DNA from: Acidimicrobiales bacterium
GTDB lineage: Bacteria > Actinomycetota > Acidimicrobiia > Acidimicrobiales > Acidimicrobilacustridaceae
Direction of reading: 5' to 3'
DNA length: 64,000 nucleotides
Assembly: GCA_030830565.1 (NCBI GenBank)
Contig: JAURMR010000041.1
Location: 124,001 to 188,000, forward strand
In this document: piece after piece, positions 20,951-22,622 of the stretch
Layout of the letters: each line of letters opens with the position of its first letter
How positions within the stretch are numbered: the stretch's first letter is position 1
Notes under the pieces: generated by a model
What the model saw: only the letters and a program-made list of their open reading frames with translations
What the model was told of the DNA's origin: nothing
Databases searched by the model: none
Made by a program: the position numbers and the translations under genes

Positions 20951-20980
20951 TTGCGTAGTGGGGGGAAGTGGGGCAATATG
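20951..20980 (+). promoter_or_regulatory. mraZ promoter with MraZ-type operator repeats
   Basis: A possible -35 TTGCGT (20951-20956) and -10 CAATAT (20974-20979) are 17 nt apart. Between and overlapping them are two direct repeats AGTGGGG (20957-20963 and 20967-20973) with a 10-bp period; a third GTGGGG lies at 20999. MraZ proteins are known to bind GTGGG/TGGGN repeats one helical turn apart and repress their own operon. The assignment is by match to that pattern. Confidence 0.65.
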
Positions 20981-21027
20981 TCTGCTCGTAGGGGCTCCGT
21001 GGGGAGTCGGTGGAGAGGATTGCAGGC

Positions 21028-21447
21028 ATGTTCGTTGGGACGTTCGAGCATTCGCTCGATGACAAGGGCCGAGTGGTCCTTCCCGCGACCTTCCGCGCCC
21101 AGTTGGTCGAGAAGGGGTTCATCTCTCAGCTCGACCGCTGTCTTGGCCTCTGGACCGAAGAAGGCTTCGGCGAAATGGCCACCCGCCTCCAGGACAAAGT
21201 CCGTTCGGGTGAAACCAGCCAGGAATCGCTCCGCGCCTTCGCCGCCAACGCCCACGAAGTCCGACCTGATTCTCAAGGTCGCATCACGATTCCCCAGCGC
21301 TTGCGCGACTTCGCCTCGCTCGACAAGGAAGCCGTCGTCATCGGCGCCTTCGGTCGCATCGAGATCTGGAACGCCGGCCGCTGGAACGACCAAGCCTCAC
21401 TCGCTGACGACAGCCTCACCCAAGCCGTTACGTCCTTGGGGCTCTAG
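21028..21447 (+). CDS. mraZ: Transcriptional regulator MraZ
   Basis: 139 aa with two SpoVT-AbrB-like DNA-binding halves: MFVGTFEHSLDDKGRVVLPA at the start and PDSQGRITIPQRLRDFA in the middle. The protein forms a ring and represses the division and cell-wall cluster through GTGGG repeats, which are present upstream. The ATG at 21028 is used because MFVG is the conserved start; the ribosome site is weak (GGAGAGG, 15 nt upstream). It opens the cluster that runs to divIVA. Confidence 0.96.
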   Translation: MFVGTFEHSLDDKGRVVLPATFRAQLVEKGFISQLDRCLGLWTEEGFGEMATRLQDKVRSGETSQESLRAFAANAHEVRPDSQGRITIPQRLRDFASLDKEAVVIGAFGRIEIWNAGRWNDQASLADDSLTQAVTSLGL

Positions 21448-21498
21448 TCCGTGTCATGTCCCCCCTGTCCCTGACCCAGAAACGAAAGGACCACTCCT

Positions 21499-21672
21499 GC
21501 GACCGAGCCGGTCGCCCGATTTTCAGCAGTCTCTCGGAACACACGATGGAAGGCCCCTACTCCGCCCGCTTCCCATCGAGCCCGACCGGGGAGAAATCCC
21601 GGCGGGCGCCCGTGTTCCGAGGGACTGCTGAGGACCGGTACCGGCTTTGCCGGCTGGCTCAGCAGCGAGAGG
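21499..21672 (+). ncRNA. Structured rsmH leader RNA (mraW-motif-like)
   Basis: The 233 bp between mraZ and rsmH are rich in structure. A 6-bp hairpin (21499-21515) is followed by TTTT. CAGCAGTCTCTCGGAACAC (21524-21542) pairs over 19 bp with 21612-21630, one pair being G-U, and encloses two further hairpins (CGATGG/CCATCG at 21544/21573, and CCGGG/CCCGG near 21585-21600). CTGCTGAG (21625-21632) pairs perfectly with CTCAGCAG (21658-21665) around CCGGC-TTT-GCCGG. The last helix shares CTGCTG with the first, so they compete just before the GAGAGG ribosome site. A structured mraW RNA motif is known upstream of mraW (rsmH) in actinobacteria; this is probably a member. Confidence 0.75.
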
Positions 21673-21680
21673 TATCTGTC

Positions 21681-22622
21681 ATGGCCGAGAACCGCGAATC
21701 GTTCGACCACCGCCCGGTGATGCTCGACGAGATCGTGGCGGCCTTTGGTTCTGTGCCCGCCGGTTGGGTCATCGACGCAACGCTTGGTGGTGCGGGCCAC
21801 ACGACTGCGATTCTCGAGGCCTATCCGCACCTGTCGGTTCTCGGTATCGATCAAGACCCCGATGCGCTTGTCGTTGCTCGTGAACGTCTCGACCCATTCG
21901 GCGAGCGCGCCCGCACTGTCCGGGCCCGATTCGATTCGCTCGGCGCAGTGGTTCGTTCTGAACTCACCGATCAGCCGATCGTTGGTGCACTTTTCGACCT
22001 CGGTGTGAGCTCACCTCAGTTCGATCGTGCTGAGCGGGGCTTCAGCTATCGGTTTGATGCACCGCTTGATATGCGGATGGACCCCTCACGCGCGTTGAGT
22101 GCGATGACCGTGGTCAATGAGTACGAAGAAAAAGACCTTGCCCGAGTTCTCCGTGAATTCGGTGATGAACGATTTGCTGTTCGGATTGCGCGCGCAATCG
22201 TCGCTGCCCGACCTGTTGAATCGACATTCCAGCTCGCAGAAATCACCCGCGACGCAATTCCCGCTCCGGCTCGGCGCACGGGTGGTCATCCGGCGAAGCG
22301 GACGTTTCAAGCGATTCGCATTGAAGTGAATAACGAACTCGGCGTACTTCCCGTTGCGCTCGAAGCGGCAATCGGTGCAATGAGTCCTGGCGGCCGTTTG
22401 GTGGTGTTGTCCTATCACTCGGGTGAAGACCGGATTGTGAAGCAGGTCATGCGCGATGCGGAGTCTGGCGGCTGCAGCTGTCCTCCGAATCTTCCATGTG
22501 TATGCGGCGCAGTATCAACAGTTCGACTCGTTCGCCGCGGCGGAACGACGCCAACGGCAACTGAACGGGAACAAAATCCGCGCGCTGAAAGTGCTCGACT
22601 CCGAATTGCGGAGCGATCATGA
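21681..22622 (+). CDS. rsmH: 16S rRNA m4C1402 methyltransferase RsmH
   Basis: 313 aa, the usual family length. RsmH uses SAM to N4-methylate C1402 of 16S rRNA. The start HRPVMLDEI, the SAM site VIDATLGGAGHT, LGIDQDPDA, FDLGVSSPQFD, RGFSYRFDAPLDMRMD and VLSYHSGEDR are intact. The frame is open upstream to 21456, but that part is the leader RNA; the ATG at 21681, 8 nt after GAGAGG, begins the homology. The stop overlaps ftsL (ATGA). Confidence 0.95.
   Translation: MAENRESFDHRPVMLDEIVAAFGSVPAGWVIDATLGGAGHTTAILEAYPHLSVLGIDQDPDALVVARERLDPFGERARTVRARFDSLGAVVRSELTDQPIVGALFDLGVSSPQFDRAERGFSYRFDAPLDMRMDPSRALSAMTVVNEYEEKDLARVLREFGDERFAVRIARAIVAARPVESTFQLAEITRDAIPAPARRTGGHPAKRTFQAIRIEVNNELGVLPVALEAAIGAMSPGGRLVVLSYHSGEDRIVKQVMRDAESGGCSCPPNLPCVCGAVSTVRLVRRGGTTPTATEREQNPRAESARLRIAERS

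Follow-up and report, generated by a model that had tools for sequence, protein, structure and literature searches.

Leaders that sequester the ribosome-binding site under the control of a protein or metabolite ligand are well known, and ribosomal-protein leaders and translational riboswitches are their standard examples. In actinobacteria, the gap between mraZ and rsmH (mraW) has an RNA of its own, the mraW motif (Rfam RF01746), which the literature, PMC2864571 and PMC5784534 included, treats as a possible cis-regulator of unproven function, with a table entry in PMC2864571 giving its taxa as Actinomycetales. In PMC3526491, a small RNA candidate of M. tuberculosis maps to the same place between the two genes, and the rsmH start given by the annotation is considered to lie too far upstream. 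In C. diphtheriae the motif precedes the point where mraW transcription begins (PMC5784534), which cautions against assuming that RNAs of this kind always belong to the rsmH message.

We analysed the mraZ-rsmH gap in a stretch of 64,000 nucleotides from an Acidimicrobiales bacterium (the window; coordinates below are those of this stretch). As an earlier note on this DNA had stated, the gap measures 233 bp (mraZ stop at 21447, homologous rsmH start at 21681). Downstream of rsmH lie a gene for a penicillin-binding protein and then Mur ligase and MraY genes, and the nearest titled relatives of the window RsmH include Microthrixaceae and Candidatus Microthrix records with 85-89% identity. Just 5' of mraZ, at 20955-21015, there are G-rich direct repeats of the TGGGG type, which we take to resemble MraZ operator boxes. 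The gap itself carries a structured RNA with no match in Rfam, which we regard as a new family within a known type, the cis-acting leaders. Here found only in Acidimicrobiia, this cis-acting RNA probably controls rsmH translation. The element and its surroundings are as follows, where R1 is a covariance model built from 21 leaders of the window's family and A3 is the class-wide alignment described below:

21028..21447, plus strand: mraZ, the gene 5' of the RNA, ending in a TAG stop (Pfam PF02381 MraZ, E 2.1e-29)
21508..21643 (about), plus strand: the structured RNA element (R1 matched over its full length, 1-136, with 147.5 bits and E 1.1e-36; the window sequence is itself among those from which R1 was built)
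21516..21523, plus strand: 5' strand of P0, pairing with 21631-21638 (numbers 1 and 2 among the helices of A3, with 96.4% and 91.7% of cells paired)
21524..21542, plus strand: 5' strand of P1 and left arm of helix 1 of the earlier note, a stem with covariation; in relatives it complements the ribosome site
21544..21554, plus strand: 5' strand of P2 (number 4 in A3, where 94.4% of cells are paired and 8 of 10 pairs have changed on both sides)
21555..21567, plus strand: loop of P2, whose best-conserved part is CUCCGCCC at 21560-21567
21568..21578, plus strand: 3' strand of P2 (family fold and class covariation)
21580..21590, plus strand: 5' strand of P3 (numbers 5 and 6 in A3, 84.9% and 97.1% of cells paired)
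21598..21607, plus strand: 3' strand of P3 (family fold and class covariation)
21612..21630, plus strand: 3' strand of P1 and right arm of helix 1; the G-rich ribosome site of rsmH lies here in 31 of 73 relatives from outside the family
21625..21665, plus strand: helix 2 of the earlier note (8+4+5 bp), drawable, not conserved, its outer eight pairs of probability 0.0
21631..21638, plus strand: 3' strand of P0; it holds an in-frame ATG or GTG of rsmH in 31 of the 73 non-family relatives and no start codon in the window
21667..21672, plus strand: GAGAGG, the Shine-Dalgarno-like site of the window rsmH, read from the sequence
21681..22622, plus strand: rsmH (mraW), of the 16S rRNA C1402 N4-methyltransferase family (Pfam PF01795, E 7.8e-102)

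Rfam 15 contained no match to the element in the window, nor any match for nine loci of the class; weak minus-strand hits (mir-370, TtnuCD16, TP73-AS1) stayed below the gathering threshold and were taken as chance. The comparison with the mraW model that the earlier note had proposed was likewise negative: RF01746 found nothing in 21400-21720 even at E values up to 10, and its gathering score of 50 bits was not reached in the window or in the nine class loci. When RF01746 was run on a phylum sample of 246 genomes it exceeded the cut-off in 11, and all 15 genomes with a match lay outside Acidimicrobiia. The reverse searches gave no bridge either. On 13 mraW loci, R1 produced only antisense hits or hits elsewhere (best E 0.006, away from the mraW RNA). 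A second covariance model, R2, had its best E on mraW loci (0.021) elsewhere as well, its sole sense overlap being at L045 with 10.8 bits and E 3.2, and a sequence profile (nhmmer) run on 19 loci reached at best E 4.2. With no RF01746 match, a different loop and profile bridging that failed both ways, we rejected membership in the mraW RNA family. Among the articles listed in searches of open-licence PMC, none described this RNA.

The overall shape is that of a long P0/P1 helix closing a three-way junction that bears the hairpins P2 and P3. The window RNA corresponds to contig positions 145508-145643, and R1 scored it at only 37.3 bits in antisense against 147.5 bits in sense, a strand preference expected for an RNA with G-U pairs. 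The fold z-score was -6.49 for 21448-21683 and -7.63 for 21500-21666, neither being equalled by any of 200 shuffles, and the longest stem in the gap, with G-U allowed, was 23 bp, while none of 2000 mononucleotide shuffles reached 19 bp (shuffle maximum 17). The 19-bp helix 1 of the earlier note, enclosing two hairpins, is exactly at 21524-21542 with 21612-21630; it contains one U-G pair and was recovered as P1 of the conserved junction, with a pair probability of 0.996-1.0 (partition function, 21448-21700). The hairpin that it had seen upstream is also there, at 21499-21515, with 7 bp in the predicted fold and TTTT four nt beyond. Helix 2 can indeed be drawn, ending 1 nt before GAGAGG, and does share CTGCTG with helix 1. 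However, the competition between the two that had been proposed carries no weight in the predicted ensemble, because forcing the outer pairs of helix 2 raised the energy from -125.8 to -110.5 kcal/mol, a penalty of 15.3 kcal/mol. Moreover, 1989 of 2000 shuffled gaps contained a stem of 8 bp or more. A scan for promoters and terminators found nothing promoter-like within the element, and nothing terminator-like on its plus strand. Within P3, positions 21588-21594 read GGGGAGA, which is ribosome-site-like and could pair with part of the P1 5' strand as a possible competing partner.

RsmH was detected in 34 of the 37 genomes of the window's family, L001 (a duplicate of L002) and L023 (a contig end without leader) having been left out before the family counts. 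All 34 leaders carried the core CTACTCCGCCCGCTTCCC with at most two substitutions, and the core was kept even where the first 120 residues of RsmH were no more than about 52% identical. We aligned 21 of these leaders with MAFFT without using structure (alignment A1), after leaving out eight of the 34 that were identical over the extracted stretch and five that were similar (L003, L004, L008, L013, L024). In A1 the junction of P0/P1, P2 and P3 was paired in 94.9% of cells, and the covariation score was 0.301, compared with 0.147 in shuffled alignments (0/500 reached it) and at most 0.112 when the helices were slid. Two of the five measures were weaker: 14 pairs with double changes against 10.7 shuffled (5/500 shuffles reached this) and 39 further pair types against 37.4 (145/500).

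For the class, removal of 48 antisense matches from 142, keeping the best row per locus (A2), preceded the examination of 94 sense copies, 21 from the family and 73 from other loci; the latter were drawn from 167 class hits as the best-scoring ones plus hand-picked mid-range and weak ones. A3 holds the 85 of the 94 that were kept by E-value and aligned to the model, and, being fitted, it leans toward the structure: 40 of 43 pairs had changed on both sides, with 617 double-change cells compared with 178 in shuffles, and the covariation score was 0.503 against at most 0.125 when slid, with 0/500 shuffles reaching the observed values on all five measures. The 8-nt core of the P2 loop, CUCCGCCC, was identical in 90 of the 94 copies, three others carrying CUCCACCC and one CUCCACCU. 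Thirteen copies (L088, L090, L092, L124, L125, L127 and L130-L136) have no P3 and keep P1, P2 and the loop, indicating that the loop, rather than P3, is the feature common to the copies. The P0/P1 helices with their covariation and the near-invariant loop are thus strongly supported as RNA.

Covariation across relatives, by which the earlier note had suggested judging both helices, therefore divided them: it was very strong for helix 1 and its hairpins, and for helix 2 there was none beyond the slid controls. Among 19 same-genus leaders, all 17 pairs of helix 2 formed in the window alone; 12 close rows formed 16, the missing pair resulting from a one-sided change, and the six distant rows formed between 7 and 13. 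Changes on both sides were absent from the 13 close rows and occupied four cells in distant rows (L016 once, L019 twice, L020 once), and the same helix slid by one to three columns gave 0-3 such cells over all 19.

R1 matched 167 of 247 Acidimicrobiia genomes, representing 104 of 124 genera. On the 246-genome phylum sample it matched 12 genomes and R2, run on 396 phylum genomes, matched 23, all of them Acidimicrobiia, in scans with strict filters and few candidates scored per genome, so that weak copies may be missed. Every copy examined lies in the mraZ-rsmH gap, with P1 beginning 17-186 nt past the mraZ stop in 94/94. An 18-mer of the loop, allowing one mismatch, occurred in 54 of 148 class genomes with exactly one match each (the reversed control matched four genomes), so no second 18-mer copy was seen in those 54 genomes.

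The class genomes without an R1 hit numbered 80; from a list of 20 of them we examined 19, leaving out G264, which R2 matched. Of these 19, 18 have rsmH. Four of the 18 contain a diverged copy with CTCCGCCC (L153-L155 and L157; R2 E values from 2.6e-8 to 0.001), and no element was found in the remaining 14, which shows that it is dispensable. In those 14 RNA-less genomes the distance from the mraZ stop to the RsmH match was at most 67 nt in 13 and 145 nt in one. Among public contigs, R2 matched 20 of the 79 loci searched (L211 was left out of 80). Six of the 20 are titled Acidimicrobiia or a subgroup (Microthrixaceae twice, Candidatus Microthrix, Acidimicrobiales, Ilumatobacteraceae, Acidimicrobiia), ten Actinomycetota, actinobacterium or similar, two Actinomycetes, one Bifidobacterium breve and one Acidobacteria. 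The last two labels (records L205 and L210) look wrong, since the RsmH proteins are 84% and 69% identical to that of the window, and these records with an Acidimicrobiia RNA appear mislabelled or contaminated. The same appears true of L237, titled Kitasatospora arboriphila, whose leader matches those of Williamsia L233 and L235 over the stretch compared.

The position of the rsmH start in relatives points to what the element may do. At one alignment position in the P0 3' strand (+/-3 nt), 32 of the 73 non-family copies have an in-frame, unstopped rsmH start (ATG 21, GTG 10, TTG 1); of the other 41, 26 have no start there and 15 have one in the wrong frame or followed by a stop. Nine shifted positions, 10-70 nt away, gave 0-6 ATG or GTG among the 73, as opposed to 31. 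Directly 5' of this start stands a run of G (GGGGGGCUG, GAGGGGCUG) that is the P1 3' strand. The 31 ATG/GTG copies are spread over 21 families. In 25 of them no further ATG or GTG lies between this start and the RsmH match, and in eight of those 25 there is also none upstream as far as the mraZ stop; an alternative start, upstream or downstream, is thus possible in 23 of the 31. In these 31 copies the ribosome site had a predicted unpaired fraction of 0.05, compared with 0.34 in the 14 RNA-less class genomes (one-sided Mann-Whitney p 6e-7), and the start codon one of 0.12 compared with 0.33 (p 0.008), p-values that are optimistic because rows are related and the control starts were chosen mechanically, each being the most upstream in-frame ATG or GTG, which may be wrong. 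Control of rsmH translation by the RNA in these relatives is accordingly a reading well supported by prediction.

The window's own family differs. Of the 21 family leaders, ten are empty at the P0 position, ten have a start there in the wrong frame or followed by a stop, and one has it in frame; the homologous start of rsmH is found 34-244 nt 3' of the element. In the window, P0 contains no start codon and the ribosome site of rsmH falls outside the element. In ten family leaders (L016, L018-L020, L022, L025, L030 and L033-L035) the P0 ATG is kept behind a G-rich stretch, out of the rsmH frame, where it opens a short other ORF. Upstream translation as the opener of P1 was considered and set aside: 20 of 73 class copies fitted it against 15.3 expected, no clear excess, and the family figure of 13 of 21 against 4.3 comes from related rows. 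A search for complements of the loop ahead of rsmH in 62 leaders found none above chance, the longest averaging 6.1 nt compared with 6.5 in shuffles.

We propose that the closed P0/P1 helix would keep ribosomes off rsmH, and that a partner recognising the P2 loop would set how often the helix opens. The partner would most likely be a protein, either RsmH itself or another RNA-binding protein, and a helix with the stability of P0/P1 would leave the gene off by default. With the family start 34-244 nt past the element, a direct block is not possible there as drawn, and the block is deduced from the relatives. The window RNA ends at about 21643, just short of where a ribosome initiating on 21681 would sit; hence we suggest that in this family the RNA, lying upstream of the ribosome site, may act indirectly, through a steric effect or through RNA processing or stability, the least-supported step of the scheme. 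What stands of the earlier note's interpretation is that a conserved structured RNA occupies the rsmH leader and that rsmH expression is probably regulated by it at the level of the ribosome site. The element heads, class-wide, the row of division and cell-wall genes, and the near-invariant loop and the ribosome site embedded in P1 of the relatives make the question of what is sensed directly testable.

Other explanations were weighed against translational control. The one that survives best, unlikely as we hold it to be, is an intercistronic processing or stability element, in which RNase III would cut P1, or P1 would protect the 3' part of the message, uncoupling mraZ from rsmH and the later genes, with the ribosome site in P1 being incidental. 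RNase III prefers long helices of this kind, and P1 with P0 forms a nearly perfect one between two genes, which in the window reaches 23 bp, at a place as constant as the 17-186 nt behind mraZ seen in every copy. Such an element, however, would leave unexplained both a near-invariant loop on top of freely varying stems and the presence of start codon and ribosome site in P0/P1 (31 of 73, versus 0-6 at shifted positions).

A somewhat smaller chance is given to autogenous control through mimicry of the RsmH target. The P2 loop ACUCCGCCCG would here imitate 16S ACACCGCCCG around C1402, copying C1399-G1405, so that RsmH not engaged with the 30S would bind, and perhaps methylate, its own messenger and hold the helix shut over the ribosome site. 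If this doubtful reading were true, division-gene expression would follow the supply of newly made 30S subunits. Loop and target share an exact match of 7 nt, CCGCCCG, and 9 of 10 positions over C1402, which 4-5% of shuffled loops equal (p 0.04-0.05), and the single loop 18-mer in each of 54 genomes fits a regulator of one gene. Yet shuffles of the whole RNA reached the match in 18-24%, the best site of the loop profile was elsewhere in all four class 16S sequences scanned, and the best site of column-shuffled profiles fell on C1402 in 584-1189 of 5000. Furthermore, the invariant U of the loop is the very base that differs from 16S, the loop G that corresponds to G1401 is replaced by A in four of the 94 copies, and two mraW RNA loops tried matched the 16S target over 4 nt only. 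RsmH is also reported to need the assembled 30S, in a passage of PMC5053481 that cites earlier work. The resemblance being only weakly above chance, we set mimicry aside as a main claim; a protein that binds C-rich loops is an equally open candidate for the partner.

Still less probable is that the conserved region is mainly coding, an N-terminal extension of rsmH from right after mraZ with the RNA fold overlaid. This at first looked strong as a cause of the conservation: in 32 of 34 family leaders the rsmH frame crosses the RNA without a stop, and by inspection an in-frame ATG soon past mraZ is common in the family. In the window the open frame runs from 21456 to 21680, that is, from just past mraZ across the entire RNA, and automatic annotation may therefore assign RsmH a false N-terminal extension. 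A second frame, however, is also open in 22 of the 34 leaders, five (L030, L031, L032, L034, L035) read the core in a different phase, and in L026 and L027 the frame is stopped and the RNA kept. Outside the family, the three frames are open in 45, 35 and 25 of 70 loci. These phase changes, stops and class-wide frames weakened the idea enough for us to reject it, and a like annotation, that of M. tuberculosis Rv2165c, was judged wrong in PMC3526491, the true start being placed 53 codons downstream of the annotated one.

Finally, the switch of the earlier note, with helix 1 and helix 2 as alternative folds exposing or hiding the rsmH ribosome site, has next to no probability left and is largely refuted, since the shared CTGCTG and the four double-change cells in three distant rows are outweighed by the fold energies, which make helix 2 negligible in the ensemble, by the genus alignment, in which it decays, and by the comparison with slid controls.

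In comparison with leaders that sequester the ribosome-binding site, the element is alike in having, by prediction, the ribosome site and start codon paired within its closing helix in 31 of 73 relatives from outside the family, and in its conserved apical loop; it differs in that the window's own copy has neither within the fold, and in that the sole alternative fold tested here, helix 2, is not conserved. The likeness to the mraW RNA is one of place and general build. Both occupy the mraZ-rsmH gap (mraW loci L037-L049), upstream of rsmH in 94/94 copies of the RNA described here, and both show an extended helix, rich in C on its 5' side and in G on its 3' side, below an apical loop rich in pyrimidines. 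In the mraW RNA, however, the loop ACUUCCCC caps a single hairpin, whereas CUCCGCCC sits in P2 of a three-way junction, and the two are found in different classes, the mraW RNA in Mycobacteriales and relatives. With this element, leader RNAs of rsmH number two, the mraW RNA and one that appears to be unrelated to it, suggesting that actinobacterial lineages have placed RNA control between mraZ and rsmH more than once.
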